A stretch of DNA of 64,000 bases from Thermodesulfomicrobium sp. WS (lineage in GTDB: Bacteria; Desulfobacterota; Desulfovibrionia; Desulfovibrionales; Desulfomicrobiaceae): positions 806,001 through 870,000 of the forward strand of contig NZ_AP027130.1 in the NCBI RefSeq assembly GCF_027925145.1. Reading direction: 5' to 3'. Position 1 is the stretch's first letter. Every line of letters starts with the position of its first letter. Under the pieces are notes generated by a model, which saw only the letters and a program-made list of their open reading frames with translations, was not told where the DNA came from and made no database searches. Below, in pieces: positions 45,238-62,845 of this stretch. Both the position numbers and the translations under genes were made by a program.

Positions 45238-47436
45238 TCATTGCATCGCGTCATGCCGGCGTGCCGCAGGCGGCGGTGGGGTTTGGGCGCCGTGGCGGCG
45301 CAAAAAGCGGGAGAGCGGGGAGGCTTGGGGCGCTTGTTCCGAAGTCTTGGGGGGGCAGGGCGGGCTTTGCCGAGGATGCGTTTGTGGTGCGTCACTGGTT
45401 GCAACCGATTGGGGCCTTTGGGCTTTGTCGTGGAGGATAAGCCTGAGCAACCGTTGGGCCAGGAGTTCGAGGTCGTGGGCCTTGGCGCGGATGGTCTCGC
45501 CTTCGGCGTGCAGGGTGTCGGTGGCGTGGTGGACTGCGGTCATGTCCTGGGTGGTGTCCTGGCATAGGGCCGCGATGGTCGTGGTTTTGGCGGAGATCTC
45601 CTGCAGGCCGAGGAAGAGATGGCTGATGGCGGTGGAGGATTCCTGCACGCTGTGTGCTTGGATGCTGACGGCTTCGGCCACGGCGGTCATGGAGGTGAGG
45701 GTGGTGGCCAACATGGTCTGGACCTGATCATTGTGTTCTCGGGCCGCATGGGCCTTCTCGCGGATACTGGAGAGGGCGGCCTCCACCTCCGCGGTGGCTT
45801 CGGCGGTCTTTTGCGCGAGGTCTTTGATCTCCCGGGCAACGACGGCGAAACTTCGACCAGCCTCGCCGGCGCGGGCGGCCTCAATGGTGGCGTTGAGGGC
45901 GAGGATTTGGGTGCGGGTGGCAATGGAATGAATGAGGCCCGTGATCTCGTCGATGCGCCGGGAGGCGGCTTCCAATTGCCGGGTCGTGTCTGCGGCGGCG
46001 CTGGCATGGCCCATGGCGGCGTCGGCCGTGGCGCGGCTGGCGGCGGCGTCATCGCGCATGCGGTTCATGTGGGCGGAAATCTCTTCCACGCTTTGGGTCA
46101 GGACCTGGGCATTGGCGCTGGCCTCTTCCATGGCTGCGGCCACAGCGTCGAGGTTGGTCTCCATGGTGTGGGTGGATGCGGTGACGTGCTCGCTGCGGCT
46201 GACCGTGGCCGCGACTTGGGTGAGCAGTCCATGGGAACTGCTGGAGAGATCGGTGGCGGCGTCGGTGATCTGTCCGGCGGCCTGGTGGATTTCGGCGAAC
46301 AGTCCTTCCAGGCGGGCAAGGAGGACATTCATGGCGTGGCTGAGCTGGCCGATGGCGTCCGGGTGGGAGGCGTCCAGACGGCGGGAATAGTCGCCGGCAG
46401 CCGCACAGGTCGCAGCCTCGGCCATGCGCGCCACAGGCCGAAGGAGGAGGTGGCTGCCGCCGATGCCCACAAGCAGGGCCAGGGCCAAGGGCACGGGCAG
46501 GCTGGTGAGAACCCCTTGGAGGATGCGTGCCTGAAGGCCGGAGAGGAGATGGGCTTGCGGCACCCAGAGTACTGCGCGCATGCCCCAGGGGAGGTCGGAG
46601 ACCTGCTGCCACACGAGAGTCTCTCCGTCGCTGGCAAACTCCCCTTGGCGGGTATGGGTGGTGCGCACGTGGGAGAGCAGTTTGGGGGGCGCTTGCGGGG
46701 TGAGGGGGCGCCCTTGGGCGTCCAGGAGACAGGCGCTGCCTGCCCCGCCTACGCCGGTTGCGTGCACGAATCGTCCAAATTCCAGCCGGATGAGGGGGCG
46801 CACCACTTCCACGGCACCGATAACCTGATCGCCAAGGTCTTTGACCGGGCTATAGGCCGCAAGCCACGGGCTGCCGTCGTGCTCCACGATGCCCATCCAC
46901 GGGCGCTGCTCGTGCGTCAGGCTCCGCGTGGCCGGGTGGTCCGGGGCAAGCCAGGAACCTTGGGGCCAGGGCTGCTTTCCTTCTGGGGCCCCGCCGGCGA
47001 TACGCACCAGCCGGTTTTGGTGAAGTTGCAGGAAGTGCACCTGGGCGCGGGTGAGGCTTGCGGCCTTGGAGAGGGCCGGGGCGGACTCGTGCAGATAGCT
47101 CCCCCCGACTTTGATGGACGGGAGGATGGAGGGGGTCGCCTCTCCGTCGAGCAGGATTTCGGCCTCAGCCAGGGGTTCTACTACCGGGAAGCCCGCGAGC
47201 TCCACGGTGGTGCGGGCGATGTCGAGATCCGCCCGGATGCCTTCTTCTTCCAGACGGGATTGGAGGATGATGGCCTGAGCGAGGGTGGCGGCCACGTGCT
47301 CGAGGGCGGCACGGCCGTTTTCCACAAAGCCTTGGCGGGCGGCGCGGCTTTGGCCCAGGGTGGTGGCAAGGATGGCGGCCAGGGCCGTGCCGATGACCAA
47401 GAGGGTGAGACGGACAGGAAAAGACACGTGGCGCAC
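45238..47436 (-). CDS. Methyl-accepting chemotaxis protein, Cache-type sensor
   Basis: A 732-residue chemoreceptor. First TM at residues 7-25, a large periplasmic Cache-like sensor (residues ~30-290), second TM ([23 protein letters not shown]), HAMP, and a signalling domain with [24 protein letters not shown]. The C-terminal 60 residues are Pro/Arg-rich and disordered-looking. The start is GTG (47434-47436) after AAGGAGG. The first 14 codons and upstream region are duplicated at the right edge of the nif island (62804-62983). Confidence 0.9.
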
Positions 47437-47574
47437 ACAAGCCTCCTTGGCGTTGGGTGCGCCGATGCTGCCGCAGGACGGTGGTGGTTTGGTGACGGAA
47501 AGGTGTCGGGATGGTTACCGGCGTCCTGTGTGCTCCAGGCGTTTTTCCCAGAGCGCCGCTGCCGCGAGGGCGAG
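47395..47574. repeat. Left copy of 180-bp direct repeat flanking the nif island
   Basis: Aligns without gaps to 62804-62983 with about ten mismatches (near 94% identity by eye). It holds the 5' end of the intact chemoreceptor gene, the spacer and the last codons of an MFS gene. Agreement stops sharply at 47574/62983 and at 47395/62804. Confidence 0.9.
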
Positions 47575-47720
47575 AAGCGGGGGACAGCCATTGCCATGGC
47601 GGTCGCTGACGCGCCTAAGGCCGGGGACGCCACGACGCAGCAAGGCCGAGGCCGGCGACGAGAGGACGCACCCCAACGCGATGGGCGGGTTGACAGGTGA
47701 AATCCCCAGGCGGCCCAAGG
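47515..47720 (-). pseudogene. Remnant of MFS transporter gene, internally deleted
   Basis: The end (ALAAAALWEKRLEHTGRR then stop) is identical to the MFS gene at 62924. About 80 bases upstream the match resumes at a different place: PLGRL..PPIALGCVLS corresponds to VFGRLADSLPIKPLITLGCVFV of the intact gene, and 47650-47719 aligns with about 63836-63906. Roughly 0.8 kb of the middle has been lost and the frame has drifted. It lies directly upstream of the intact chemoreceptor gene, as the intact MFS copy does at the other junction. Confidence 0.75.
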
Positions 47721-47810: not shown

Positions 47811-48938
47811 TCAATTTGTTGTTGGCAGAGGAGCTGCTTTTGGGGTGTTGAGGAGTTGTTGGGCCAAATGGAGCACTTCCTCGGCTTCCAATGGCTGTTG
47901 AGCGCCGTGTTTGCGCACATGGGCGAGTACCTGCTCCACGTCGACACCTTGTCCAAGTAGGCCGTGACGAGACAGGAGCTGCACAACGGCTCCTCGTCCG
48001 CTTTTGGCCCCCCACAAAAGATGCCGCTGCATCCCCAAGCGTTCTGGTGGACAAGGCTCGAACAGCCCAGGGTCTTTGAGCAGCCCATCCACATGGAGTC
48101 CGGATTCGCTCGTGAAGATGTGTTTGCCTGCGATGGCCTTGCGGGGGTCCAATGAGAGCCCGGTGCTGTGGGCCACTTCGTGGCAGAGTTGGCGCAGAGA
48201 ACACATGTCGTCCTTGCGGGACGCGCGGATGAGGGTGAGGTATCCCGCTACTTCCTCCAAGGCACTGATTCCCGCCCGTTCCCCAAGCCCGAGGAGACTG
48301 ACGTCGGCCCAGTGGCCCCCGGCATCCAGAGCGCATAGGGCATTGGCTGTGGCCATGCCAAAGTCGTCGTGACAGTGCACGCCCACGGGCAGGCGGGTTA
48401 TGCTTTGCGCCCAGCGGACGGTTTCGGCGCAGGTCTGGGGCGTCCAGATTCCTCGTGTATCGGCCAAACGCACACCATGGGCGCCAGCACGTTCTGCGGT
48501 GCGCAGGAAGGGCTCTATGGCATGCAACGGAGCACTGCTGGCGTCTTCCAGACCCACCCGGATGGTGAGGCCTAGGCTTCGGGCATTACCAATGGTGGCC
48601 ACGAGCCGCTGGAGTGCTTCGGTTACGGAGATCTTGAGGCGGCGGGCAAGATGCTGCGGCGACACCGGTATGCCAACGTGGACGGCATGAAGCCCGAGCT
48701 TGGCGACCGTGCCTAGGATCTCCGGCCGACATGGGGCCCAAATGGCGCATCGGGAGGCAAGGCCATGGCGCTGTGCCGCCGCGGCGATATCCTCAATGCC
48801 GTCCTTTCCCAACCAGCCGATTTCCACCATTTCGACCCCTGCACGGACCACGTCTCGCAGTATCCGTACCTGAAGTTCTTTGGGGAACTGGACTCCTACT
48901 GCCTGGGCCCCTTCACGTAGTGTAGTATCCAGAAGCAT
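47811..48938 (-). CDS. nifV: NifV, homocitrate synthase
   Basis: Condenses acetyl-CoA and 2-oxoglutarate to homocitrate, the organic ligand of FeMo-cofactor. The 375-residue protein has LLDTTLREGAQAVGV (DTTLRDGEQ-type substrate motif), metal and substrate residues in VGVHCHDDFGMATANAL, and GLGERAGISALEEV (GxGERxG). Conserved His in GKHIFTSESGLHVDG is present. It runs divergently from nifH across 301 bases that contain the nif promoter. First gene inside the left repeat. Confidence 0.92.
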   Translation of the reverse strand: MLLDTTLREGAQAVGVQFPKELQVRILRDVVRAGVEMVEIGWLGKDGIEDIAAAAQRHGLASRCAIWAPCRPEILGTVAKLGLHAVHVGIPVSPQHLARRLKISVTEALQRLVATIGNARSLGLTIRVGLEDASSAPLHAIEPFLRTAERAGAHGVRLADTRGIWTPQTCAETVRWAQSITRLPVGVHCHDDFGMATANALCALDAGGHWADVSLLGLGERAGISALEEVAGYLTLIRASRKDDMCSLRQLCHEVAHSTGLSLDPRKAIAGKHIFTSESGLHVDGLLKDPGLFEPCPPERLGMQRHLLWGAKSGRGAVVQLLSRHGLLGQGVDVEQVLAHVRKHGAQQPLEAEEVLHLAQQLLNTPKAAPLPTTN

Positions 48939-49150: not shown

Positions 49151-49166
49151 TGGCATGCCCCTTGCC
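49151..49166 (+). promoter_or_regulatory. Sigma-54 promoter of the nifH operon
   Basis: TGGCATGCCCCTTGCC: -24 GG at 49152-49153 and -12 GC at 49164-49165 with exactly ten bases between, very near the TGGCACG-N4-TTGC consensus. Transcription should begin near 49177, about 63 bases before nifH. It needs an activator of the NifA type, encoded at 61098-62669. Confidence 0.87.
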
Positions 49167-49224
49167 CCAAGGTAGGACATTCTTGCGGGAGATCCCTGCA
49201 GGAGATTGGATATGCGCTTGTTAA

Positions 49225-50067
<843 letters not shown>

Positions 50068-50091
50068 TTTACAGAAAAAGGAGGTATTTTT

Positions 50092-50436
50092 ATGATTATG
50101 ATTCGTGCTATCGTTCGCCCTGAAAAGGCTGATGATGTTCTCGCTGCCCTTATGGAAGCCGGATTTCCTGCAGTGACCAGATACTCCGTAGCTGGGCGTG
50201 GTAAGCAGCGAGGTATCAAAATTGGTGAAGTGACGTATGACGAGATCCCTAAGACAATGCTTATGAGTGTTGTTCCGAGCGCTGATAAGGATTTTGTTGT
50301 AAGTGTTATTATGAAATCTGCTAGAAGCGGGGCAAAGGGTGCTTTTGGTGACGGAAAGATTTTTATTTCTCCATTGGATGCTGTGTATACTGTGAGTTCT
50401 GGAGTGTGTGATTCGGATATGGAGGCCAGACAATGA
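50092..50436 (+). CDS. nifI1: NifI1, PII-like nitrogenase regulator
   Basis: GlnB-family protein of 114 residues between nifH and nifD. In methanogens and other anaerobes NifI1-NifI2 complexes bind dinitrogenase and switch it off when ammonium is present, relieved by 2-oxoglutarate and ATP. Visible: MIMIRAIVRPEKADDVLAAL, T-loop with GEVTYDEIPK, and the ligand motif GAFGDGKIFISP. GGAGG precedes the ATG. Overlaps nifI2 as ATGA, indicating balanced synthesis of the two subunits. Confidence 0.93.
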   Translation: MIMIRAIVRPEKADDVLAALMEAGFPAVTRYSVAGRGKQRGIKIGEVTYDEIPKTMLMSVVPSADKDFVVSVIMKSARSGAKGAFGDGKIFISPLDAVYTVSSGVCDSDMEARQ

Positions 50437-50807
50437 AAGAAGTGATCGCCGTGATTCGTATGAATAAGATGAATGCTACAAAAAAGGCGCTCACCGACGC
50501 AGGTATTGCGGCCTTTTTTGCCCATGAATGCTTTGGCCGAGGAAAAGGACTGGTAGACCCGAGTGCTTTGGATGGGGTCAAAAGGGGAGTGGAAGAGGCC
50601 GTAGCGGCCGTTGCGGACCCGATCAAGCTGTATCCCAAGCGGATGCTCACTGTGGTCGTTCCGGACGAGATGGTGGATGATGTGGTGTCCACCATCATGG
50701 AAGCCAACCGCACAGGCCAGCCTGGAGACGGCAAGATCTTTGTGCTCCCTGTTTCGGACTCAGTGCGGGTGCGTACGGGCGAAAGCGGCACTAAGGCTAT
50801 TGTTTGA
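50433..50807 (+). CDS. nifI2: NifI2, PII-like nitrogenase regulator
   Basis: Second PII-type subunit, 124 residues: MKEVIAVIRMNKMNATKKAL, FGRGKGLVDP, an extended T-loop region (ALDGVKRGVEEAVAAVADPIKLYPKRM) and GQPGDGKIFVLPV. The longer T-loop is typical of NifI2. It likely pairs with NifI1 to inhibit NifDK post-translationally. It is followed after 14 bases by nifD. Confidence 0.93.
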   Translation: MKEVIAVIRMNKMNATKKALTDAGIAAFFAHECFGRGKGLVDPSALDGVKRGVEEAVAAVADPIKLYPKRMLTVVVPDEMVDDVVSTIMEANRTGQPGDGKIFVLPVSDSVRVRTGESGTKAIV

Positions 50808-50821
50808 AGGAGGAGGAAAGT

Positions 50822-52459
50822 ATGAGCGCGCCTGTCAAGAAATTTAAAGCGTTGGATCCAGAAGAAGTCAAAAAACAGCTGGTTTCCCGCTATCCTGCCA
50901 AGGTGGCCCGAAAGCGGGCAAGTCAGATCGTCGTCAATGAGCCTGGTGACGTGCCGCCGGAGATTCTCGCCAATGTGCGCACCATTCCCGGCATCATCAC
51001 GATGCGCGGTTGCAGCTATGCGGGGTGCAAAGGGGTCATCCTGGGCCCGACTCGGGACATTGTGAACATCACTCATGGCCCCATTGGGTGCGGTTTTTAT
51101 TCATGGCTTACCCGTCGCAATCAGACCGACGCCTCGGCAGAGGGTGCTGAAAATTATATGACTTACTGCTTTTCTACGGACATGCAGGAGCAGGATATTG
51201 TCTTTGGCGGCGAGAAAAAGCTCGAAGCAGCAATTCAGGAAGCTTATGACATATTTCATCCAAAGGCGATTGCTGTGTTTGCTACTTGTCCGGTTGGACT
51301 TATCGGAGACGATATCCATGCAGTTGCAAGAAGGATGAAAGCAAAATTTGGAGATTGTAACGTTTTTGCTTTTAGCTGTGAGGGATATAAGGGAGTAAGT
51401 CAGTCTGCTGGTCATCATATCGCCAACAACCAGATTTTTACTCATGTCGTTGGAGAAATTGATGAACCACGCAAAGGGAAGTATACTATCAATCTATTAG
51501 GAGAATACAATATCGGCGGTGATGCATTTGAGATTGAGCGTATTCTTGATAAGTGTGGAATTACTCTTTTAGCGACATTTTCTGGAAATTCCACGTATGA
51601 ACAATTCGCAACGGCGCATCAGGCGGATCTCGACTGCGTCATGTGTCATCGCTCTATCAATTATGTCGCCGATATGCTGGAGGAAAAGTACGGAATTCCT
51701 TGGATTAAAGTGAACTTCATTGGGGCCCAGGCAACGGCCAAGAGTCTTCGGAAGATTGCCGAGTACTTCCAGGACCCTGAGCTTCTTGCTCGGGTAGAGG
51801 AGGTCATCGCCGAGGAACTCCCCGAAGTGGAGGCTGTGGCCAATGCGGTGCGTCCGCGCACCCAGGGTAAGACGGCCATGCTTTTTGTCGGCGGGTCTCG
51901 CGCCCATCACTATCAAGAGCTTTTCAAGGAAATTGGCATGAAGATCTTGGCCGCGGGGTATGAATTCGCTCACCGCGATGACTACGAAGGCCGCCAGGCT
52001 CTGCCCCGGATCAAAGTGGACGCCGATAGCCGCAACATCGAGGAGATTGAGGTCACGGCCGATCCCAAACGCTATCGCCCCCGCAAGACCGAGGAACAAC
52101 AAGCCGCCCTTGAGGCGCAGGGATTCACCTTCAAAGACTATACCGGCATGATGGCAGAGATGGAGAAGGACACATTGGTCATCGACGACCTCAATCAGTT
52201 TGAGGCGGACCGGCTCATCGAACTCTACCGCCCCGATATCTTCTGCGCAGGTATCAAAGAAAAGTATGCAGTGCAGAAGTATGGCATCCCCCTCAAGCAG
52301 CTCCATAGCTATGACTATGGTGGTCCTTATGCCGGATTCCGTGGAGCCATCAACTTCTACAAAGAGATCGACCGCATGGTGAACAGCCGGGTGTGGACCT
52401 ATCTCAAGGCTCCATGGCAGCAAAATCCGGAACTCTCAGCGACCTACGTGCATCAATAA
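50822..52459 (+). CDS. nifD: NifD, nitrogenase MoFe protein alpha chain
   Basis: Catalytic subunit holding FeMo-cofactor (545 residues). P-cluster cysteines are in RGCSYAGCKG, GPIGCGFYSW and ATCPVGLIGDD; the substrate-channel His in QSAGHHIANNQ; the cofactor ligands in VMCHRSINYV (Cys) and LHSYDYGGPYAGF (His). The length, with an insertion after about residue 385, matches the clostridial/Desulfovibrio type rather than the shorter Azotobacter chain. GGAGGAGG precedes the ATG. An AT-rich block covers about 51140-51700. Confidence 0.97.
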   Translation: MSAPVKKFKALDPEEVKKQLVSRYPAKVARKRASQIVVNEPGDVPPEILANVRTIPGIITMRGCSYAGCKGVILGPTRDIVNITHGPIGCGFYSWLTRRNQTDASAEGAENYMTYCFSTDMQEQDIVFGGEKKLEAAIQEAYDIFHPKAIAVFATCPVGLIGDDIHAVARRMKAKFGDCNVFAFSCEGYKGVSQSAGHHIANNQIFTHVVGEIDEPRKGKYTINLLGEYNIGGDAFEIERILDKCGITLLATFSGNSTYEQFATAHQADLDCVMCHRSINYVADMLEEKYGIPWIKVNFIGAQATAKSLRKIAEYFQDPELLARVEEVIAEELPEVEAVANAVRPRTQGKTAMLFVGGSRAHHYQELFKEIGMKILAAGYEFAHRDDYEGRQALPRIKVDADSRNIEEIEVTADPKRYRPRKTEEQQAALEAQGFTFKDYTGMMAEMEKDTLVIDDLNQFEADRLIELYRPDIFCAGIKEKYAVQKYGIPLKQLHSYDYGGPYAGFRGAINFYKEIDRMVNSRVWTYLKAPWQQNPELSATYVHQ

Positions 52460-52473
52460 AAAAGGAGCAACTC

Positions 52474-53850
52474 ATGCTGCTACGTCATACACCACAAGAA
52501 ATCATCGAACGCAAGGCGCTCACCATCAATCCGGCCAAGACCTGCCAGCCTATTGGGGCCATGTACGCTGCGTTGGGCGTCCACGGGTGCTTGCCTCATA
52601 GCCATGGGTCCCAAGGCTGTTGTGCCTACCATCGCAGCACCTTGGTACGCCACTACAAAGAACCTGTGTCCGCTGCCACGAGTTCTTTTACGGAAGGCGC
52701 TTCGGTTTTCGGCGGCGGCGCAAACCTCACCCAGGCCATCGAGAACATTTTTACAGTATATGATCCAGAAGTTATTGCTGTACACACGACTTGTCTCTCT
52801 GAGACCATTGGAGACGATCTCAATCAGATCATCGATAAAGCTAAAAAGAGCGGCAAGGTACCTGAAGGAAAGAATGTAATTTTTGCGAATACTCCAAGCT
52901 ACGTCGGTTCTCATGTCACAGGATTCTCTTCAATGGTGAAGAGTATTGTTTCAAGTTTTGCAAAAACAGATGGATCGCCTTCAGGAAATGTTAATATAAT
53001 ACCTGGTTGGTTGGAACCTTCCGATATGGAAGAGATAAAACGGCTCGCTTCTCTCATGGGCGTTCCAATTACAATGGTTCCAGACACATCTGGAGTTCTC
53101 AACGCTCCGCTGACGGGTCAGTTTACTCTGTTTCCCAAAGGCGGTGTGACGGTGGAGGAACTGCAGGCCACAGGCAGGGCCAAGGCCACAGTGGCCTTGG
53201 GTGAGTGGTGCTCGGCAGAAGCGGCCCGTTGGCTGGATGCTCAGTGTAAGGTGCCGTGTACCATCATCGAGATGCCCTATGGACTTCTCGGAACGGATCG
53301 TTTCATTGATGCATTGCGGGTTGCAGGCGGTGTTGCGGTTCCAGAATCCATTGAATTCGAGCGGGGACAGCTCGTGGATTTCATCGCCGACATGCATCAG
53401 TATTTCTACGGAAAGAAGGTCGCATTGGTAGGTGATCCTGATCAGCTTATCGCTATGACCGATTTCCTGGTGAGTATCGATATGCATCCAGTACATATCG
53501 TTACAGGGACTCCAGGATCACGTTTTGAGAAACGAATCCAGGAAATCGTTGCGCCCCTCGGCTATACACCAAACGTTCGTGCCGGTGGTGATATGTTTTT
53601 GTTTCATCAGTGGATCAAAAATGATCCGGTCGATGTTATCATTGGCAATACGTACTGTAAGTACATCTCCCGTGATGAGGATATCCCTTTGCTCCGGTTT
53701 GGATTCCCTATCTTGGATCGAGTGGGACACCAGTACTTTCCTACGGTTGGGTATAAGGGCGGACTTCTGTTTCTTACCCGCTTGCTGGACGTGCTTTTGA
53801 CCCGCAAGGACCGCGATGAACCTGAATCGAGCTTTGAGCTGGTGTATTAA
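52474..53850 (+). CDS. nifK: NifK, nitrogenase MoFe protein beta chain
   Basis: Forms the alpha2-beta2 core with NifD and shares the P-cluster (458 residues). Its P-cluster cysteines appear in KTCQPIGAMYAALGV, GSQGCCAYHRS and HTTCLSETIGDD. It is shorter than proteobacterial NifK because the N-terminal extension is absent, as expected for this nitrogenase group. AAAGGAG precedes the ATG, 14 bases after nifD. Contains two AT-rich blocks near 52740-53110 and 53390-53760. Confidence 0.97.
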   Translation: MLLRHTPQEIIERKALTINPAKTCQPIGAMYAALGVHGCLPHSHGSQGCCAYHRSTLVRHYKEPVSAATSSFTEGASVFGGGANLTQAIENIFTVYDPEVIAVHTTCLSETIGDDLNQIIDKAKKSGKVPEGKNVIFANTPSYVGSHVTGFSSMVKSIVSSFAKTDGSPSGNVNIIPGWLEPSDMEEIKRLASLMGVPITMVPDTSGVLNAPLTGQFTLFPKGGVTVEELQATGRAKATVALGEWCSAEAARWLDAQCKVPCTIIEMPYGLLGTDRFIDALRVAGGVAVPESIEFERGQLVDFIADMHQYFYGKKVALVGDPDQLIAMTDFLVSIDMHPVHIVTGTPGSRFEKRIQEIVAPLGYTPNVRAGGDMFLFHQWIKNDPVDVIIGNTYCKYISRDEDIPLLRFGFPILDRVGHQYFPTVGYKGGLLFLTRLLDVLLTRKDRDEPESSFELVY

Positions 53851-53860: not shown

Positions 53861-54160
53861 ATGGCGATTCCTGAACGCGTTGTCTTGGTGTGTCAGAGCT
53901 TCCGTACTGCTGGTGAGCCCAAAGGGGTGTGTCATCGGCACAATGATGGCCTGGCGCAGTATCTGGAAGAGGAGATCCTTGCCCGCGGCTTGGACATGCA
54001 AGTGATCACGACGGGGTGTCTGAAGCGCTGCGAGCGAGGACCAGTCGTTGCCATCATGCCGGAGAATTGGTGGTTCGGCGCAGTGGACAGCGAGGAAGCG
54101 GTGGACGCCATCCTTGATGGTCTCGAAAACGGCGAACCGGCTGCCAATCGTTTGGAGTAG
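53861..54160 (+). CDS. Thioredoxin-like [2Fe-2S] ferredoxin
   Basis: About 99 residues with the pattern C-x12-C...C-x3-C of Shethna/NuoE-like [2Fe-2S] proteins: VCQSFRTAGEPKGVCHR and TTGCLKRCERGPVV. It probably moves electrons to nitrogenase or serves cofactor assembly; similar genes sit in other Desulfovibrio-type nif operons. An ATG three bases earlier (53858) could be used; GGGGG spacing favours 53861. Eleven bases from nifK. Confidence 0.85.
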   Translation: MAIPERVVLVCQSFRTAGEPKGVCHRHNDGLAQYLEEEILARGLDMQVITTGCLKRCERGPVVAIMPENWWFGAVDSEEAVDAILDGLENGEPAANRLE

Positions 54161-54162: not shown

Positions 54163-54603
54163 ATGTGTATCCGCCCTGCCACCCATGCCGACCTTGCTGC
54201 CATGACGGGACTCTTGGAGCAACTCTTTGGTATCGAGACAGAATTTGCCGTGGACAAAGCCAAACAAATGCGAGGGCTGGCCCTCCTGCTGGAAACCCCC
54301 AAGGCCGTGGTCCTCGTGGCGGATGTAGGTGGCAAGGTGGTGGGGATGGTAACCATGCAGACCGTGGTTTCCACTGCGGAAGGCGGTCCAGTGGGTTGGG
54401 TGGAGGACCTTGTCGTGGATGAGGCCTGGCGGGGCAAGGGCATCGGTTCGGCTTTGTTGCGGGCCATCCTCGGACTGGCCTTTGCCCGTGGTCTTTCTCG
54501 CGTCCAGCTCCTCGCCGATGCTGAGAATGCCGCTGCCTTGCTTTTTTACCACCGGCATGGGCTTCGGCGGACGCGTATGGTGTGTGTGCGCGCCGTGCCC
54601 TGA
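54163..54603 (+). CDS. GNAT-family N-acetyltransferase in nif operon
   Basis: A 146-residue acetyltransferase with the acetyl-CoA loop WRGKGIGSALLRAIL (Q/RxxGxG/A), preceded by VEDLVVDEA and followed by ADAENAAALLFYHRHGL. Substrate unknown; the placement between the ferredoxin and nifE with only two bases of spacing suggests a nitrogen-fixation-related target, perhaps a protein or cofactor intermediate, but this is speculative. Confidence 0.87.
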   Translation: MCIRPATHADLAAMTGLLEQLFGIETEFAVDKAKQMRGLALLLETPKAVVLVADVGGKVVGMVTMQTVVSTAEGGPVGWVEDLVVDEAWRGKGIGSALLRAILGLAFARGLSRVQLLADAENAAALLFYHRHGLRRTRMVCVRAVP

Positions 54604-54616: not shown

Positions 54617-55999
54617 ATGAACGCGGTACTCGAAGAACGGGCGTCTCAAGTTTGTCGCCTGGGAGAAGAGCCCTTTGCTATGGTTTGCAACCGCCCGAGT
54701 CTTGCAGGGGCCGTGAGCCAGCGGGCTTGCGTGTTTTGCGGTTCGCGGGTGGTCCTTTATCCCATCGCCGATGCCTTGCATCTGGTGCATGGGCCCATTG
54801 GTTGTGCGGTGTATACCTGGGATATTCGGGGGGCACTCTCTTCGGGCCCGCAACTCCATCGCATGAGCTTTTCCACGGATCTCAAAGAAAAGGATGTCAT
54901 TTTTGGGGGCGAGAACAAACTCGCCGCAAGTCTCGATGAGCTCATCCCCCAATATACCCCCAAGGCCGTGTTCGTGTACTCCACCTGTATTGTGGGACTC
55001 ATCGGCGACGACGTGGATGCCGTGTGTCGCAAGGCGGAGGAGCGTTTTGGCATTCCAGTCATTCCTGTGCACAGCGAAGGCTTCAAGGGGAACAAGCGCG
55101 CAGGGTATTCCGCAGCCTGCCAGGCTCTCATGCGTCTCGTGGGTAAGGGGTCCACTGAAGGAATCGGACCTCTGAGCGTCAATATCCTCGGTGACTTCAA
55201 TCTCGCCGGTGAGATTTGGATCGTGCGGGGCTATTTGGAGAAGATGGGGATCCAGGTGGTGGCGAACGTCACGGGGGATGGACGCGTGGAGGACATCCAA
55301 CGCTGCCACGGGGCGCGGCTCAATCTGGTGCAATGCTCGGGGGCGACCATGGAATTCGCCCGCATGCTTCAAGAGCGCTATGGTATTCCTTGTATCCGGG
55401 TGTCCTACCTGGGCATCGAAGACATGGCCGACTCTCTGTACAAGGTGGCAGACTTCTTTGCCGCGCAGGATCCTTCTTTGCGCGAGCGCACGGCCCAGCT
55501 GGTACGGACCGAATTGGAGTGGCTGCTGCCGCGGCTTGCAGAGCTGCGCCGCGATCTCGAAGGCAAGCGGGCAGCCCTCTACGTGGGAGGATCGTTCAAG
55601 GCCTTCTCGTTGGTCAAGGCGTTCCGTCACCTGGGCATGCAGTCGGTAGTCGTGGGTTCGCAGACGGGTACCACTGAAGAGTACGAGGAACTCGCCGGCA
55701 TCTGTGATCCGGGAACCATCCTCGTGGATGATGCCAATCCTTTGGAGCTCGCCGCGTTTCTCGAGGAGAAAAAGGTAGATGTATTCGTTGGAGGGGTCAA
55801 AGAGCGACCCATCGCCTACAAGTTGGGAATTGGCTTTTGCGATCACAACCATGAGCGTAAAATCGCTCTGGAAGGATTCGTTGGTATGTATAACTTTGCA
55901 AAGGAAGTACATGCATCTACCATGAGTTCTGTTTGGAAAATTATGCCACGCAAAGGATATAAACCTCCTTTTCTCGATAAGGAGGGTTGCCATGTCTGA
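54617..55999 (+). CDS. nifE: NifE, FeMo-cofactor scaffold alpha-like subunit
   Basis: NifD paralogue forming the NifEN scaffold where NifB-co becomes FeMo-co (460 residues). Conserved cysteines in QRACVFCGSR, GPIGCAVYTWD and STCIVGLIGDD; the Cys corresponding to the NifD cofactor ligand is in NLVQCSGATMEFARM. GAGGAGG precedes the ATG. Its 3' part (from about 55790) turns abruptly AT-rich. The nifN start overlaps its end by eight bases. Confidence 0.95.
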   Translation: MNAVLEERASQVCRLGEEPFAMVCNRPSLAGAVSQRACVFCGSRVVLYPIADALHLVHGPIGCAVYTWDIRGALSSGPQLHRMSFSTDLKEKDVIFGGENKLAASLDELIPQYTPKAVFVYSTCIVGLIGDDVDAVCRKAEERFGIPVIPVHSEGFKGNKRAGYSAACQALMRLVGKGSTEGIGPLSVNILGDFNLAGEIWIVRGYLEKMGIQVVANVTGDGRVEDIQRCHGARLNLVQCSGATMEFARMLQERYGIPCIRVSYLGIEDMADSLYKVADFFAAQDPSLRERTAQLVRTELEWLLPRLAELRRDLEGKRAALYVGGSFKAFSLVKAFRHLGMQSVVVGSQTGTTEEYEELAGICDPGTILVDDANPLELAAFLEEKKVDVFVGGVKERPIAYKLGIGFCDHNHERKIALEGFVGMYNFAKEVHASTMSSVWKIMPRKGYKPPFLDKEGCHV

Positions 56000-57326
56000 G
56001 TATGTGTCTACAATAAATGCATGCAAAATGTGTATGCCGATTGGTGCTGCTCTGGCATTCCGTGGTATCGATGGATGTATTCCATATATTCATGGTTCTC
56101 AAGGATGTGCCACATATATGCGACGGTATATCATCAGCCATTTTCGAGAGCCAATCGACATTGCGTCTTCTTCGATGGACGAGAAAGCTGCTGTGCATGG
56201 TGGAGGTCCGAATTTCAAGAAGGGCATCCTCAATGTCATGCGCAAATATAATCCTCAATTGGTAGGGGTAGCCACCACCTGTCTGACAGAAACCATTGGC
56301 GAAGATGTTCCTCGTCTGGTGCAGGAGTTTCGGGAGGAGTTTGCAGATCTTCCCTTGCCAGAGATCGTGACCGCCTCCACCCCCAGCTATTCCGGGACCC
56401 ATATCGATGGCTGGCATGCGGCCTTGCAGGCGGTGGTGAATGGCGTGGCCCAGCCCGTCGATTCCCATGGGGGAGTGACGCTTATGCCGGGATTTCTCTC
56501 TCCTGCGGATCATCGTTGGTTCAAGGAGTTGGGCGCGCGCATGGGGCTTGCGCTGACCCTCCTGCCCGACTTCAGTGACGTGCTCGACGGCCCGACCTGG
56601 GAGACCTATCAGCCCCTGGCTCCGGGAGGGACTCCCATGGAGGCCATTCGGCGCATGGCGGGGGCCTGCGCTACGGTGGAGCTTGGTGTGCCGCACCGTC
56701 TTTCTCCAGCCCAGTCTCTGGAGCAGCGTTTGGGCACGCCTGCACGCTTTACGGACACGCCCATCGGCCTTCGGGCCACCGACCGCTTTCTCGGCGTGCT
56801 CACGGAGTTGGGCGGGTGCGTGGCCCCGCGGGAGGTAGCTGCCCGGGGCCGGCTTTTGGACGCCCTGGTGGACGGCCATAAGTATGTCTTCGGCAAGCGG
56901 GTTGTGGTCTACGGCGAGGAGGAACTGGCCGTGGGAGTAACGGCATTCTTGGCCGAGATGGGAGCTCGACCGGTGCTCGTGGCCACGGGTGGCGCGAGCG
57001 CTACCCTGGCCGATCGTGTCCGTGCCGTCGTAGACGGGCTGTGTCCTTTGCCCGAAGTGCGCACCGAGGCCGACTTCCATCAAATCGAGGAAGAAGCCAA
57101 TTCCATGGAGCCGGATTTTCTCGTGGGCCACAGCAAAGGATACAAGCTTGCGCGTTCTCGTGGCATCCCGTTGATCCGTCTTGGATTTCCCATTCACGAT
57201 CGGTTTGGAGGACAGCGTCTTTTGTGCGTGGGCTATGATGGTGCCCTGGAGCTTTATGATCGTATCGTCAACGCCCTGCTGGCCCAGAGTCAAGATGCAT
57301 CTCCGGTAGGATATTGGTATCTTTAG
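55992..57326 (+). CDS. nifN: NifN, FeMo-cofactor scaffold beta-like subunit
   Basis: NifK paralogue, partner of NifE (444 residues). NACKMCMPIGAALAFRGID, HGSQGCATYMRR and ATTCLTETIGED mark the cluster-binding region. It is a free-standing protein, not fused to NifB. AAGGAGG lies inside the end of nifE, giving tight coupling. The first 250 bases are AT-rich, the rest GC-rich like the surrounding genome. Confidence 0.94.
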   Translation: MSEYVSTINACKMCMPIGAALAFRGIDGCIPYIHGSQGCATYMRRYIISHFREPIDIASSSMDEKAAVHGGGPNFKKGILNVMRKYNPQLVGVATTCLTETIGEDVPRLVQEFREEFADLPLPEIVTASTPSYSGTHIDGWHAALQAVVNGVAQPVDSHGGVTLMPGFLSPADHRWFKELGARMGLALTLLPDFSDVLDGPTWETYQPLAPGGTPMEAIRRMAGACATVELGVPHRLSPAQSLEQRLGTPARFTDTPIGLRATDRFLGVLTELGGCVAPREVAARGRLLDALVDGHKYVFGKRVVVYGEEELAVGVTAFLAEMGARPVLVATGGASATLADRVRAVVDGLCPLPEVRTEADFHQIEEEANSMEPDFLVGHSKGYKLARSRGIPLIRLGFPIHDRFGGQRLLCVGYDGALELYDRIVNALLAQSQDASPVGYWYL

Positions 57327-57345: not shown

Positions 57346-58608
57346 ATGTGCAGGCAAAAAGATCGTAGCGTACATCCATGCTTTGAAAAAAAATCCGCAT
57401 GCTCTGTTGGGCGCGTCCATTTGCCAGTGGCTCCCACATGTAACATTCAGTGTAATTACTGCGATAGGAAGCATGATTGCATCAATGAATCCCGTCCAGG
57501 AGTGACGAGTGCGGTGCTCTCCCCCACGCAAGCCAGTGCCTATTTGGACATGGTTCTTGAACGGGAGCCGCGTATCCGGGTGGTGGGGATTGCGGGTCCG
57601 GGGGATCCGCTGGCCGAGCCTTCCCGAACGCTGGAGACCATCCGTCTCGTGGCGCAGGCCCATCCTGAGTTGTTGTTCTGCCTTTCCACCAATGGGCTGG
57701 GGCTTCCTGATGTCGTGGATGACTTGGCGGATTTGGGCGTGACCCACGCGACCGTGACCGTCAATGCCGTGGACCCGAAAGTGGGAAGCCAGATCTACCG
57801 GTGGGTGCGTTTTGCCAAGCGTGTCTACCGCGGTGAGGAAGGGGCCCGGCTGCTTTTCTCCCGGCAGGAAGAGGGGATCCGCCGTCTCAAGGAGCGGGGG
57901 ATGACCGTGAAAGTGAACACCATCGTTATCCCTACGGTCAATGAGAACCATGTGCTCGAGGTCTCGCGCTGGGCCGCGGGCCTTGGTGTCGACATCCAGA
58001 ATTTGCTCCCGCTGTGTCCAGCTGCCCAGACCCCCTTTGCTGCCTTGGGCGAGCCCGAGGAGCATTTGGTGGAGGCGTTGCGGAACGAGGCCTCGGCCTT
58101 GCTGCCTCAGATGCGCCATTGCCAGCGCTGTCGTGCAGATGCCGTGGGGCTTCTCCATGCGGATCAGTCTCGGGACTTGGCCCCGGTACTGCGGCAAGTG
58201 GCTCATGGCCCAGCCGTGTCGCGCCCATACGTAGCCGTGGCCAGCCGGGAGGGGCTTTTGGTCAATCAGCATTTGGGCGAAGCAGCTGCCTTTCAGATTT
58301 GGCAGCCAGGACAATCGCCGCGCCTGGTGGCGACACGGCCCGCGCCGGAACCCGGCGGGGGCGATGGCCGGTGGCGGCAGATGGCGCAGGTTTTGGGTGA
58401 TTGCAGTGCGGTGTTGGTCCGGGCCGCAGGGGCGCGCCCCAAGGAAGTTCTCAGCCAGCAAGGCATCACCGTGTATGAGGTGGAGGGGCTGGTGCGGGAC
58501 GTACTTGCGGCCTATGCCGAAGGCCAAGACATGGGCGCATTCCGGCCCTGTTCCGGTACGGGATGTCGTGGCGCGTTGGGGGGAGGAGGCGTTGGATGCG
58601 GGGCCTAA
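57346..58608 (+). CDS. nifB: NifB, radical SAM FeMo-co precursor synthase with NifX-like tail
   Basis: Builds NifB-co, the 8Fe-9S-C precursor. Radical-SAM cysteines are in PTCNIQCNYCDRKHDC; GIAGPGDPLAEP and the extra cluster ligands (HRCRQC-like RHCQRCRADAVG) follow. From about residue 285 a C-terminal NifX/NafY-like domain begins (RPYVAVASREGLLVNQHLGEAAAFQIW), which may carry the precursor to NifEN; no separate nifX is present. AAGGAAC precedes the ATG. The tail is Gly/Cys-rich. Confidence 0.95.
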   Translation: MCRQKDRSVHPCFEKKSACSVGRVHLPVAPTCNIQCNYCDRKHDCINESRPGVTSAVLSPTQASAYLDMVLEREPRIRVVGIAGPGDPLAEPSRTLETIRLVAQAHPELLFCLSTNGLGLPDVVDDLADLGVTHATVTVNAVDPKVGSQIYRWVRFAKRVYRGEEGARLLFSRQEEGIRRLKERGMTVKVNTIVIPTVNENHVLEVSRWAAGLGVDIQNLLPLCPAAQTPFAALGEPEEHLVEALRNEASALLPQMRHCQRCRADAVGLLHADQSRDLAPVLRQVAHGPAVSRPYVAVASREGLLVNQHLGEAAAFQIWQPGQSPRLVATRPAPEPGGGDGRWRQMAQVLGDCSAVLVRAAGARPKEVLSQQGITVYEVEGLVRDVLAAYAEGQDMGAFRPCSGTGCRGALGGGGVGCGA

Positions 58609-58631
58609 CACACGTTTTTTGGGGCGGAATC

Positions 58632-59402
58632 ATGAGGACGTTGATGGTGGCCGGCATGGTGATGGGGTTTGCGTGGGTATGCGCGGCTGAGGAAAGGCCT
58701 ATGGTGGCGGCCGCAGCGAGCCTCAAGTTTGCGTTCAGCGAAGTGGCGGAAGAGTTCCAGCGGCAAACGGGGATGTCGGTGCGTCTGAATTTTGGTTCTT
58801 CAGGGAATTTCCGCCGGCAGATTCTTCAGGGGGCCCCGTATGAGGTCTTTTTTTCGGCCGATGAGGAAAACGTCCTGGCGCTCCACGCACAAGGCTTTGC
58901 CGTGGATGCGGGCAGAACCTATGCCCGGGGGCGGGTGGTCCTCTTGGGGCATTCGTTGGGCCTTTTGGGTGTGGGGGCAGACCTTTCCGGCATGGTCGAG
59001 GCGGTTAGGAGTCACAAAATCACGCATTTTGCCATCGCCAATCCCGAACATGTCCCATACGGCATGCGCGCGCAGGAGATCTTGCGCCGCTTGGGAGTGT
59101 GGGAGGAAATTCAGCCCCGGTTGGTCGTTGGAGAAAATGTGGGGCAGGCCGCCCAATTCATCCTCGAGGGTGGCGCTGACGCTGGTCTTGTCCCTCTTGC
59201 TTTGGTGCTTTCTCCTTCTCTGGCGGGTAAGGGTGAGTACGTCTTGGTGCCGGAGCAGTGGCATACGCCGCTCCTCCAACGCGGTGTGCTGCTCAAGGGG
59301 GCAGGGCCTGTCGCCCAAGCGTTCTACCAGTTTGTCTTTTCCGCCAAGGCGCGGGAGATCCTGGAGCGTTACGGCTTCGTGCCCTTGGGGGGTGGATCTT
59401 GA
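58632..59402 (+). CDS. modA: ModA, molybdate-binding protein
   Basis: Periplasmic molybdate receptor of 256 residues. Signal peptide MRTLMVAGMVMGFAWVCAAEE, then VAAAASLKFAFSEVAEEF, FGSSGNFRRQI and FFSADEENVLAL, the Ser-rich oxyanion-binding pattern of ModA; IANPEHVPYG is another family block. It starts 23 bases after nifB and overlaps modB by one base, tying Mo uptake to nitrogen-fixation expression. Confidence 0.93.
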   Translation: MRTLMVAGMVMGFAWVCAAEERPMVAAAASLKFAFSEVAEEFQRQTGMSVRLNFGSSGNFRRQILQGAPYEVFFSADEENVLALHAQGFAVDAGRTYARGRVVLLGHSLGLLGVGADLSGMVEAVRSHKITHFAIANPEHVPYGMRAQEILRRLGVWEEIQPRLVVGENVGQAAQFILEGGADAGLVPLALVLSPSLAGKGEYVLVPEQWHTPLLQRGVLLKGAGPVAQAFYQFVFSAKAREILERYGFVPLGGGS

Positions 59403-60067
59403 TGGATTGGTCGGCCCTTGTCCTTTCGTTGGAGATCGCTGGGAGCACGGTACTGATACTTGTGCCGGTGGGAATGGTCTTTGGACGGCTTTTGGCGTGG
59501 CGCTCGTTTCCTGGCAAGAGCCTGGTACTGGCGGCGATCAACCTCCCGTTGCTCCTGCCCCCTACGGTGATGGGGTTTTACCTCCTTCAGACGTTGGGGC
59601 GGAATACGCCCGTGGGCCGCATGGCGGAACAGATCCTCGGCCATCCTTTAGTGTTTCATTTTTCGGGGCTGGTATTGGCGTCGTGCCTGACCAACATCCC
59701 TTTTGCCATCCAGCCGGTGCAGCGGGCCTTGATGGCGATCCCCCGCGAGGTGCTCGAGGCGGCGGCGTGCTGCGGCATGGGTCCGTGGCAACGAGTGTGG
59801 CGGGTGGAGCTCCCTTTGGCATGGCCAGGGCTTGTCTCGGCCGTGGCCTTGGTGGCGGCGCACTGCCTTGGTGAGTTTGGCGTGGTGCTTATGATGGGAG
59901 GCAACATCCCGGGGCAGACGCGCACCATGTCCATTGCCATCTATGAACGTATTCAGGCCTTTGACGAGGCTGGGGCCGCCTTGCTGGCGGCGACGCTTTT
60001 GGGGATGTCGCTTGTTGTTCTTGCCATTCTCTTTGGAGTGGATCGTGGACGAGCAACAAGGCCTTGA
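59402..60067 (+). CDS. modB: ModB, molybdate ABC permease
   Basis: Inner-membrane permease of 221 residues with five to six helices. NLPLLLPPTVMGFYLL and the EAA loop VLEAAACCGMGPWQRVWRVELPLAWPGLVSA are typical ModB segments, as is GEFGVVLMMGGNIPGQTRT. It begins at the ATG inside the modA stop (TGATG) and ends 23 bases inside modC. Confidence 0.93.
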   Translation: MDWSALVLSLEIAGSTVLILVPVGMVFGRLLAWRSFPGKSLVLAAINLPLLLPPTVMGFYLLQTLGRNTPVGRMAEQILGHPLVFHFSGLVLASCLTNIPFAIQPVQRALMAIPREVLEAAACCGMGPWQRVWRVELPLAWPGLVSAVALVAAHCLGEFGVVLMMGGNIPGQTRTMSIAIYERIQAFDEAGAALLAATLLGMSLVVLAILFGVDRGRATRP

Positions 60068-61127
60068 GGTGCGGGTTCGTTGCAGCGCGCCGATCCCGCT
60101 GGCGGTGGAGCTGCGGTGCCCTGCAGGACAGACCATGGCAGTGGTGGGACCTTCAGGGTGCGGCAAGACGAGCTTATTGCGGGTGGTTGCCGGCTTTTTC
60201 CGGGTGTCTGGAGCTCGCGTGGTGTGTCTGGGGGAGGTGTGGCAGGACGGTCGCCGCTGGCTGCCGACCCACCAGCGCGCTGTGGGTATGGTCTTTCAGT
60301 CCTATGCCCTCTTCCCCCATCGGAGTGTGCTGGAAAACGTGCTCGCGGCCCAAGGCGTTGGGGGAAAGGCGGGGGCGCTGGAGTATCTTGCCCAGGTGGG
60401 GCTTGCGGGCTTGGAGGATCGGTATCCCCATCAGCTCTCGGGTGGCCAGCGCCAGCGGGTAGCCCTGGCGCGCGCTTTGGCCCGGAGGCCTCGGGTGCTT
60501 TTGCTCGACGAGCCGTTTTCTGCCGTGGATGGGCCCATGCGGCGCAGCCTGCACGACTTGATGCGTACTTTGGGGAGCATGGTGCGTGTCCCGTGCCTTC
60601 TCGTCACGCATGATGTCGAGGAGGCCCGTCGGTTGGCCCAGCAGATGCTGGTTATGGATCAAGGGCAAGCGCTCCAGGTGGGCCCCCCGGAGGAGGTCCT
60701 GCGGGCTCCGGCCTCGTTGCAGGTGGCGCGGGTGTTGGGTCTTGCCAATGTATTGCCTGCGGAAGTGGCTGGGAGCGAGGCGGCGGGACTTGTGCTTCGC
60801 GCCGGGGCGATCACGGTGGTTTCCGGAACGAAGCGGCGGTTTCGGCATGGGGCGCCTGTCTTGTGGCACGTCCCTCCTGCCGAGGTATCCGTGGTGCCTG
60901 AAGGCGAGCCGGCGTGCCGCTACCACCGCGGTCCCTTGGTGGCATTGGAGGTGTGTGCCGTGGATGTGCTTCCTCCGGTGGTACGGGTGCTGCTGCGTTG
61001 GCCAGGAGGAGGCGTCGTGGAATCCGAATCCACTCATCCGGCCCTGCGCCAGCGGCCGCCGCAGCCCGGGACCACGGTGCGTGTGTGTCTGCCGCCCTCA
61101 GCGATCCACGTGTTCCCCGCCCCGTGA
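60045..61127 (+). CDS. modC: ModC, molybdate ABC ATPase
   Basis: ATPase of the Mo importer, 360 residues. Walker A GPSGCGKTSLL, Q-loop FQSYALFPHRSV, signature LSGGQRQRVALARAL and Walker B LLLDEPFSAVD. The C-terminal 130 residues resemble a MOP/TOBE oxyanion-sensing domain. The GTG at 60045 follows GGAG; it overlaps modB by 23 bases. Its 3' end overlaps nifA convergently by 30 bases, so the operon and its activator meet tail-to-tail. Confidence 0.9.
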   Translation: MDEQQGLEVRVRCSAPIPLAVELRCPAGQTMAVVGPSGCGKTSLLRVVAGFFRVSGARVVCLGEVWQDGRRWLPTHQRAVGMVFQSYALFPHRSVLENVLAAQGVGGKAGALEYLAQVGLAGLEDRYPHQLSGGQRQRVALARALARRPRVLLLDEPFSAVDGPMRRSLHDLMRTLGSMVRVPCLLVTHDVEEARRLAQQMLVMDQGQALQVGPPEEVLRAPASLQVARVLGLANVLPAEVAGSEAAGLVLRAGAITVVSGTKRRFRHGAPVLWHVPPAEVSVVPEGEPACRYHRGPLVALEVCAVDVLPPVVRVLLRWPGGGVVESESTHPALRQRPPQPGTTVRVCLPPSAIHVFPAP

Positions 61128-62669
61128 GGCAATGGCTTCGAGCCGCTTGCGGGCCACGAACGTTTCCAGACCATATTTGCGCAGGCGATATCCCAGCTGC
61201 CTGGGCGTGATCCCGAGTTCTCGGGCTGCCTGCTGCTGAATCCAATGGCAGCGTTCCAAGGCGGCCAAGAGTTCCCGCTGCTCCATCTCCTGGAGCGAAC
61301 CCGGCGTGGGGGAAGGAGCCGGACTGGAAACCACTTGCTCTGGGGCGAGGCGGAGCAATGGCCGCAGGCGTGCTGCCGTCACCGGGGTGCCGTCATTGAG
61401 GATGATCAGCCGCTCCACGAGGTTTTCCATCTCCCGCACGTTCCCTGGCCAGAAGTAGCCTTCGAGGAGGTGGAGGGCTTCGGCCGTGAAGGACAGAGAC
61501 CGTCCATATTCTTGCTCTGCCCGGTGCTGGAAATGGGCAAGCAGGGGCAGGATGTCTTCCGGGCGTTCGCGCAAGGCGGGCACGTGGATGGGGAAGACGT
61601 TGATGCGGTAGAAGAGGTCGTTGCGAAACTGGCCGGCGCGGACCAATTCTTCCAAGTCGCGGTTGGTGGCGCTGATGATACGGACATCCACCTTGCGGGT
61701 AGCATTACTCCCGAGACGCTCCATCTCTCGCTCCTGGAGGACGCGCAGCAGCTTGGATTGCAGTGGCAGCGGGAGTTCTCCAATTTCGTCCAGAAAGATG
61801 GTCCCTCCGTGGGCTTCCTCAAATCGCCCCGGTCGGGATGCCGTGGCGCCGGTAAAAGCCCCTTTCTCGTGCCCGAAGAGTTCCGATTCCAAGAGGTTCT
61901 CCGGGATGGCGGCGCAATTCACCTTGACGAACGGCCGTTGGGCTCGATCCGAGAGATCATGGATGATGCGCGCCACGAGGGTTTTTCCCGTGCCGGATTC
62001 TCCTAAGAGGAGCACTGTGGCCCGCGTGGGGGCTACGCGCTCGATCATGTCTTCGACCTCACGCAGACGGGAGCTCTTGCCGATGAGGCTTGGACCTCCG
62101 GTCTCTCGGGACAGTTGAGAGCGCAGCCGGAGATTTTCTTGCTCGAGAGTGTGGAGCTTTTTTTGTACATTTTTGTGAAGAGCAAGGATGCGGGAAAGGA
62201 GGGTGGCGACGATGGAAAGGGTGCGGGCGTCGGCCTCCAGGCGTTCCGGGTCGGGGTAGGCTCGGTCCGCACTCAGGACTCCTATGGGCTCGCCATGCAG
62301 GAGGATGGGGACTCCAATGAAGGCGAGAGGGATGTCCTGGGGCCGCCGGGATCCGGTCTTGTCTAAAAACAGCGGTTCGGTGGTGATGTCCGGTACCACG
62401 AAGGCTTGGCGCTGGCGAAAGATGGCGCCGGTAACGCCTTCGTCGAGGCGGTAGATGCCCCGTTGGCGTTCTTCTGGGGTGAGACCGTGGGATCGGGAAA
62501 TGGCGAGACGGCGAGTGCGCTCATCGTAGAGGGTGATGGTGATACGCAAAAGCCCCAAGGTGGTCGCCAGGGTTTCCAGGACCGCCTCCAGGGTGTTTCC
62601 CAGATCCATGGCCTGGTCGATGTGGGTGGCGATGCGCAGAAGCACATCGAGGTCTTGGTTGGCATCCAT
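61098..62669 (-). CDS. nifA: NifA, sigma-54 activator of nitrogen fixation
   Basis: About 523 residues. N-terminal GAF domain (DLDVLLRIATHIDQAMD to about residue 160), AAA+ domain with Walker A GESGTGKT, sigma-54 loop GAFTGATAS and FLDEIGELP, then a Fis-type HTH (QQAARELGITPRQLGYRLRKYG). This is the NifA layout; it should drive the 49151 promoter. The start at ATG 62669 gives the expected GAF length; a GTG two codons earlier is equally possible and no clear ribosome site is seen. Its 5' flank is the right-hand repeat. Confidence 0.9.
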   Translation of the reverse strand: MDANQDLDVLLRIATHIDQAMDLGNTLEAVLETLATTLGLLRITITLYDERTRRLAISRSHGLTPEERQRGIYRLDEGVTGAIFRQRQAFVVPDITTEPLFLDKTGSRRPQDIPLAFIGVPILLHGEPIGVLSADRAYPDPERLEADARTLSIVATLLSRILALHKNVQKKLHTLEQENLRLRSQLSRETGGPSLIGKSSRLREVEDMIERVAPTRATVLLLGESGTGKTLVARIIHDLSDRAQRPFVKVNCAAIPENLLESELFGHEKGAFTGATASRPGRFEEAHGGTIFLDEIGELPLPLQSKLLRVLQEREMERLGSNATRKVDVRIISATNRDLEELVRAGQFRNDLFYRINVFPIHVPALRERPEDILPLLAHFQHRAEQEYGRSLSFTAEALHLLEGYFWPGNVREMENLVERLIILNDGTPVTAARLRPLLRLAPEQVVSSPAPSPTPGSLQEMEQRELLAALERCHWIQQQAARELGITPRQLGYRLRKYGLETFVARKRLEAIASRGGEHVDR

Positions 62670-62803
62670 GTCCACGGCAAAGCAAAGCGAGTGCCAGGAG
62701 GTGAAGGTATCGGTGGCGTCAGGAGCGATGCTGGAGACGGATATTTTTTTACAAAAATGAATAAATTTATGCGGCGTGTTGCGGGAAGTGGGGTGTTCCG
62801 GCC
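62670..62803. other. nifA leader region, AT-rich in part
   Basis: Between nifA and the repeat copy. Contains an AT-rich block (62745-62770) that could hold the nifA promoter; I could not pick a convincing -35/-10 pair or a -24/-12 element. Confidence 0.35.
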
Positions 62804-62845
62804 GACCAAGAGGGCGAGACGGACAGGAAAAGACACGTGGCGCAC
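62804..62845 (-). pseudogene. First codons of a chemoreceptor gene (remnant)
   Basis: GTG at 62845 behind GGAGG reads [14 protein letters not shown], 13 of 14 residues equal to the intact chemoreceptor at 47436. Homology then stops and an unrelated reading frame continues toward nifA. It is the broken partner of the intact gene at the left end of the island. Confidence 0.75.

Follow-up and report, generated by a model that had tools for sequence, protein, structure and literature searches.

Nitrogenase accessory genes, such as nifX/nafY, nifW, nifZ, and those for nif-associated ferredoxins, are patchily distributed and in many phyla lie alongside the core nif genes. To our knowledge, nearly all of the known ones encode Fe-S, scaffold, or electron-transfer proteins; we found no GNAT acetyltransferase among the accessory genes described in the papers retrieved, and no description of a GNAT family of nif operons in a search that left most subscription papers outside its coverage. 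NifA-dependent GNAT genes are reported in rhizobia (Bphy_7268 and bll1906; PMC8305402 and PMC6515984) but were not placed in the family described here, for which the plasmid search listed only Sulfuricurvum and Nostoc. In Zymomonas fixing N2, acetylated forms of NifA (at K45), NifH (K12), and NifK (K395) are reported, and the nif island includes a SIR2 deacetylase gene (available part of PMC8600466). Acetylation of a Nif protein, which the initial annotation of the locus studied here had offered as new biology, is thus not wholly new.

Here, we describe a GNAT gene located within the nif cluster of Thermodesulfomicrobium sp. WS, in a 64,000-nucleotide stretch of the genome (the window). The gene represents what appears, judged by its sequence, to be a distinct and undescribed family. 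GNATs are an already known kind of enzyme, and the new aspect is apparently the recurrence of one GNAT family in nif operons.

The forward-strand run of genes in the window is nifH-nifI1-nifI2-nifD-nifK-fdx-GNAT-nifE-nifN-nifB-mod, with the nifV-like and NifA-like genes transcribed in the opposite direction (Table 1); the true start of the NifA-like gene is probably internal to its reading frame. The GNAT gene encodes 146 amino acids from an ATG start, with GGAG five bases 5′ of it. The open reading frames bear out its reported position two bases from the ferredoxin gene (stop codon 54158-54160) and 13 bases from nifE (GNAT stop codon 54601-54603, nifE ATG at 54617), the latter gap containing GAGGAGG, and ribosome-binding sites are good at both junctions. 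We take the ferredoxin to be of the thioredoxin-like type. The canonical sigma-54 pattern (TGGCAC-N5-TTGCW, one mismatch allowed) gave nothing near nifH, and the sole site came from a looser pattern (TGGCAYG-N4-TTGC), picked after the sequence was read and assumed by us to follow the sigma-54 consensus. Because the gaps are short, the forward strand has no terminator-like site in the stretch from the end of nifK to the nifE start, and a sigma-54-type site precedes nifH, the GNAT gene is likely to be co-expressed with the nitrogenase genes.

Table 1. Features of the nif region, with positions in the window.
Feature	Position	Strand	Evidence or remark
Direct repeat, left copy, 195 nt	47395..47589	+	Flanks nif block
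nifV-like homocitrate synthase	47811..48938	-	TIGR02660 278 bits, below cut-off 462.9
Sigma-54-type promoter-like site TGGCATGCCCCTTGC	49151..49165	+	75 bases before nifH; 1 match in the window, 0.14 expected, with a pattern picked after reading
nifH	49240..50067	+	TIGR01287 444 bits, over NCBIfam cut-off
nifI1 (PII-like)	50092..50436	+	Named from ORF reading alone
nifI2 (PII-like)	50433..50807	+	Named from ORF reading alone
nifD	50822..52459	+	TIGR01282 687.7 bits, over NCBIfam cut-off
nifK	52474..53850	+	TIGR01286 452.7 bits, over NCBIfam cut-off
2Fe-2S ferredoxin gene (fdx), directly upstream of GNAT	53861..54160	+	NF041612 E 4e-14, NF041613 E 4.9e-11, both under cut-off
GNAT acetyltransferase gene	54163..54603	+	PF00583 E 3.4e-19; AF2 pLDDT 93.7; top PDB fold 8a9n, Z 21.4
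nifE, directly downstream of GNAT	54617..55999	+	TIGR01283 602.3 bits, cut-off 505
nifN	55992..57326	+	TIGR01285 294.3 bits, below cut-off 326.8
nifB (radical SAM and FeMo-co binding domain)	57346..58608	+	TIGR01290 366.7 bits, over cut-off; PF02579
modA-modB-modC (molybdate transport)	58563..61127	+	Named by reading; ORF starts approximate
NifA-like sigma-54 activator	61098..63215	-	TIGR01817 522.7 bits from residue 188, just below cut-off 528.85
Direct repeat, right copy, 195 nt	62804..62998	+	92% identical to left copy, 15,409 bases apart

The nif block is a genomic island. The copies of the 195-nt repeat overlap two genes named by reading, an MFS-type gene at its end and a chemoreceptor-type gene at its start. 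In G002, which is of the same genus and has no nifE, the homologues of these flanking genes are adjacent (8474-9472 and 9852-11960 of locus L234), about 380 bases apart. Because repeats flank the block and its flanking genes adjoin one another in the nif-less relative, the GNAT gene belongs to an island that came into this genome, or disappeared from the sister, as one unit. At 47-52%, the G+C content of the nifHDK part (49000-53500) lies below the 62-68% found over most of the flanks, as would be expected if part of the island were of foreign origin. A search of viral contigs gave no relative of the GNAT gene, so that nothing points to a phage origin, and a toxin-antitoxin or defence role was rejected, the neighbours being fdx and nifE and PADLOC giving no match at E 0.01.

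The protein matches the Pfam profile Acetyltransf_1 at 69.7 bits (gathering cut-off 20.7), and scores above the cut-off of no NCBIfam model; the best E-value among the NCBIfam matches listed across family members is 1.4e-15. Alignment with 60 relatives, 43-60% identical to the window protein, shows fourteen residues to be invariant in all 61 sequences (L21, F22, E25, F28, S70, T71, A72, G74, G75, E81, D82, R113, Q115, and L117), giving the motifs LF..E..F, STA.GG, and ED. The acetyl-CoA loop of GNATs has the pattern R/Q-x-x-G-x-G/A, and the corresponding stretch here is R90-G-K-G-I-G95, with R90, G93, and G95 conserved in at least 90% of the 61. Acidic residues are conserved at E25, D27 (E in the window protein), E73, E81, and D82. 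The AF2 model is of a complete GNAT, and the profile match, the model, and the relatives together rule out an artefact or a chance reading frame. In a tree the family separates from most paralogues in the same genomes (support 97/94, the bootstrap not having settled), two partial outgroup rows falling within it and the branching of the window gene not being resolved; one side branch is marked by R-T, F, and S instead of R-Q, W, and T. A member of that side branch on a plasmid of Nostoc sp. HK-01 (L182, 1911-7395) adjoins genes annotated as a nitrogenase MoFe alpha subunit and a C26 peptidase.

A fold search of the PDB gave Z of at least 8 for 993 of 999 aligned chains, the top ones being GNATs. 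The closest is DpA, a polyamine acetyltransferase with bound 1,3-diaminopropane (rmsd 1.7 over 145 residues, 17% identity). DpA and SSAT (Z about 18) resemble the window protein over the whole length of the fold and share with it a Glu-Asp pair, E81-D82 presumably being equivalent to the general base E92/D93 of SSAT, and an STxxG loop. They differ in sequence (17-26% identity), and the GNAT gene sits in a nif operon. Furthermore, the family has STAEGG where the SSAT-like weak hits alone have S-T-W-x-G, alongside an E-D at the corresponding place, and so lacks the SSAT tryptophan. Other fold matches are HPA2 (Z 20.2), the aminoglycoside acetyltransferases AAC(6′)-Iy and AAC(3)-XI (about 20), which are likewise short single-domain GNATs, thialysine and spermidine acetyltransferases and the ornithine acetyltransferase NATA1 (18-19), and RimI-like proteins (17.7). 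Three weak hits to the family profile (L226, L227, and L228; E 8e-16 to 3e-19) lie in loci read as phosphonate uptake and recall PhnO; an assignment as PhnO aminoalkylphosphonate acetyltransferase was rejected (NF007530 30.2 bits, cut-off 142). The window's nif block has no phosphonate gene.

The family is strongly associated with nif genes. In a set of 61 genomes, made up of the window's own and those of 60 relatives, seven gave strong GNAT matches (E <1e-30; the next best was 4.7e-6), all within the 29 that match nifE and none within the 32 that do not. Scanning genome contigs with five aligned copies confirmed 261 relatives, and the 80 kept fall in ten phyla by their tree labels: Pseudomonadota, Thermodesulfobacteriota, Myxococcota, Nitrospirota, Bacillota, Chloroflexota, Acidobacteriota, Lentisphaerota, Kiritimatiellota, and Planctomycetota. 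A core nif gene (nifH, D, K, E, N, or B) is present within 6 kb on either side in 59 of these 80 loci. The genomes of 32 of the 80, where linkage was absent or unclear, were checked for nifE: 25 match (23 over the cut-off) and seven do not, namely Thioalkalivibrio ALJ17, four Ghiorsea, Mariprofundus PV-1, and an unclassified member of the Pseudomonadota.

Of 345 genomes evenly sampled from the window's phylum, 37 match the profile of the family at E 1e-15, and 34 still do so at E 1e-30. In this sample, nifE occurs in 33 of the 34 strong carriers and in 98 genomes overall (Fisher p 3e-19, in a test that takes no account of phylogeny and treats species that are not independent; the carriers with nifE span 19 families). 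The one exception is G392, which belongs to the side branch. Within 1.5 kb flanks, 24 of 28 loci from this sample (30 less the window's own genome and G025, already included as L062) have a nif-type gene, which in one case is a NifA-type activator only, as compared with none of 32 generic GNAT loci, save for one generic sigma-54 activator match. The ferredoxin gene is directly upstream in 11 of the 28, and among all 114 loci examined the GNAT gene directly follows a 2Fe-2S ferredoxin gene in 38. Its position otherwise varies, including after nifV, between nifA and nifH, before modA, and after nifI2, and NifI or GlnK is encoded nearby in several loci. Since the gene lies in a nif run and the family is nif-linked across phyla, its role is likely to have to do with diazotrophy or with nitrogen limitation. 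Exceptions to the linkage occur even within the same order. G027, a genome with nifE, has its GNAT gene in a contig stretch where nif genes are absent over 19 kb (L060, C5:69000-88000).

The initial annotation foresaw a survey of nif operons in which sporadic presence without co-evolution would count against its proposal. Presence is indeed sporadic – 65 of the 98 nifE-positive genomes in the phylum sample give no strong match, and 33 do – but the lack of association is contradicted by the carriers in that sample, nearly all of which have nifE. The gene is optional in diazotrophs, as illustrated by G009 and G012, whose nif genes run in the same order and whose Nif proteins are 95-99% identical (NifH 99.3%, NifE 98.2%, with ferredoxin at 98.9%), but of which only G009 has the GNAT gene; in G012 the fdx-nifE gap, of about 200 bases, contains no remnant of it. 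The fdx-nifE gaps of five GNAT-less clusters contain no remnants beyond chance. In some such clusters (L063 9755-9957, L064, and L071) a long stem-loop spacer takes the place of the gene, with similar sequence in three genomes, and that of L063 folds at -78 kcal/mol (z -2.8). A gamma-proteobacterial symbiont of Ctena has a copy with an in-frame stop (L082, 6001-6438), which is perhaps decaying.

Neither is the family confined to diazotrophs. In 348 Pseudomonadota genomes there are 17 strong carriers, seven with nifE and ten without, nifE being present in 40 overall (Fisher p 0.001); in the window's phylum, one of the 34 carriers has no nifE. Copies in nif-less genomes retain the motif residues, with exceptions in L191 (the copy in L222), which differs at G75 and R143, and in L143 and L191, which have Q for E73; a substrate outside nitrogenase is therefore to be expected. 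The link to nitrogenase that was first proposed thus holds as regards location and association across phyla, but a target dedicated to nitrogenase fits poorly with the patchy presence, the G009/G012 pair, and the motifs kept without nif. Four nif-less copies have neighbours related to nitrogen (ten neighbouring proteins were Pfam-tested and the remainder named by reading): glnK and amtB on either side (L216); glutamine synthetase (GS)-like, GATase, GXGXG, and glutamate synthase-like genes with an XRE-cupin regulator gene (L073); an FAD oxidase-like gene, XRE-cupin, and amtB-glnK (L143); and amtB, XRE-cupin, and a class I amidotransferase (L222). The GNAT gene follows the XRE-cupin gene in GS-like, glutamate synthase-like, or oxidase-like operons (L073 1033-6432, L143 4028-6444, L222 6449-8450), and this setting is a second recurrent context. 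In many other nif-less carriers, including Ghiorsea and Mariprofundus, the neighbours are housekeeping genes, metG-ribD or polA for example.

We infer activity, substrate class, and physiological role from these fold matches, motifs, and nitrogen-related contexts outside nif clusters, and tentatively favour, at somewhat below even chances, a reading in which the enzyme acetylates a small amine during nitrogen limitation. It would be an accessory member of the nif operon, a soluble enzyme using acetyl-CoA bound by the RGKGIG loop (90-95), and its acceptor would be a small primary, cationic amine handled in the manner of the SSAT/DpA polyamine acetyltransferases, with Glu81-Asp82 as the general-base site and the LF.IE.DF segment and STAEGG loop lining the acceptor pocket, which the conserved acidic residues would suit to such a substrate. 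The acceptor could be a polyamine, an ammonium analogue, or a compound resembling lysine or ornithine, and production alongside nitrogenase would answer a need of the nitrogen-starved cell and not one for nitrogenase modification. Several observations weigh against this: a fold match does not identify the substrate, and protein acetyltransferases (HPA2 and RimI-like) match as well; alanine replaces the tryptophan found in the STW.G loop of SSAT; the window's nif cluster has no amine-metabolism gene; the neighbours in many nif-less carriers are housekeeping and not nitrogen genes; and a position in a nif operon most simply suggests a nitrogenase-related role.

The main alternative, which we regard as unlikely but by no means negligible, is a protein acetyltransferase modifying a Nif protein, the neighbouring ferredoxin, NifA, or a PII protein (NifI/GlnK) at a lysine or at the N-terminus and so tuning nitrogenase or nitrogen sensing. 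Operon position, just behind a ferredoxin gene in 38 of the 114 loci and at times close to NifI or GlnK, argues for it, as do the HPA2 and RimI-like fold matches and the Zymomonas modifications and SIR2 gene (available part of PMC8600466). The G009/G012 comparison argues the other way, the Nif proteins and ferredoxin being near-identical with and without the enzyme and thus showing no obvious compensating change, as do the many nifE-positive genomes of the phylum without a strong match and the conservation of the motifs in nif-less genomes; the match to the RimI ribosomal protein acetyltransferase model (TIGR01575, E 2.6e-11) reaches 43.8 bits, below the cut-off of 86.4, and membership of that family was rejected. 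A broader proposal – an unrecognised nif accessory enzyme that acetylates either one particular protein (Nif, ferredoxin, or PII) or a cofactor-assembly metabolite, constituting an acetyl-CoA-dependent nitrogenase switch in ten phyla – seems to us doubtful, at roughly one chance in five.

It is quite improbable that the enzyme detoxifies, acetylating a toxic amine or amino-acid analogue such as an ammonium analogue imported by AmtB or an inhibitor of glutamine synthetase, in the way that ArsN1, phosphinothricin, or aminoglycoside acetyltransferases do. The amtB or GS-like neighbours in L073, L143, L216, and L222, the patchy presence, and similarity to the AAC and ArsN1 models would fit, but the scores fall far short (AAC(3)-I 38.8 bits against 200, ArsN1 34.5 against 170), and a resistance gene would not usually keep a stable nif linkage over so many phyla. 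There is no resistance context, and on the NCBIfam cut-offs membership of the aminoglycoside or arsinothricin resistance acetyltransferases was rejected.

A generic GNAT travelling with nif islands and having no function in nitrogen metabolism is very unlikely, even though the gene is optional between near-identical clusters, the window's nif block is an island, and most nif-less carriers have the gene in unrelated contexts. Purifying selection in the G005/G009 pair (dN/dS 0.29) is weaker than at the neighbouring ferredoxin (0.05) and nifE (0.09) genes, which also favours a passenger, but linkage recurs in many phyla and at differing positions, against its absence from the generic GNAT control loci. 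Least probable of all, with only a slim chance, is an N-acetylglutamate synthase-like enzyme acetylating glutamate or a related amino acid and tying nitrogen status to arginine synthesis, for although 13 of 61 members match NF049894 (N-acetylglutamate synthase; best E 9e-10) and glutamate-metabolism genes adjoin the nif-less copy in L073, the acidic pocket motifs suit a cationic substrate and the window protein has no NF049894 match at E 1e-6.

Acetylation of a small amine in nitrogen-limited cells is thus the reading we retain, and the near-identical G009 and G012 clusters with and without the gene, together with the nif-less carriers, make the question testable. Accessory genes decide what must be transferred for engineered nitrogen fixation. 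If it is borne out, a recurrent acetyl-CoA-using nif enzyme would mean either that carbon status is tied to nitrogen fixation or that an amine is important in nitrogen-starved cells.
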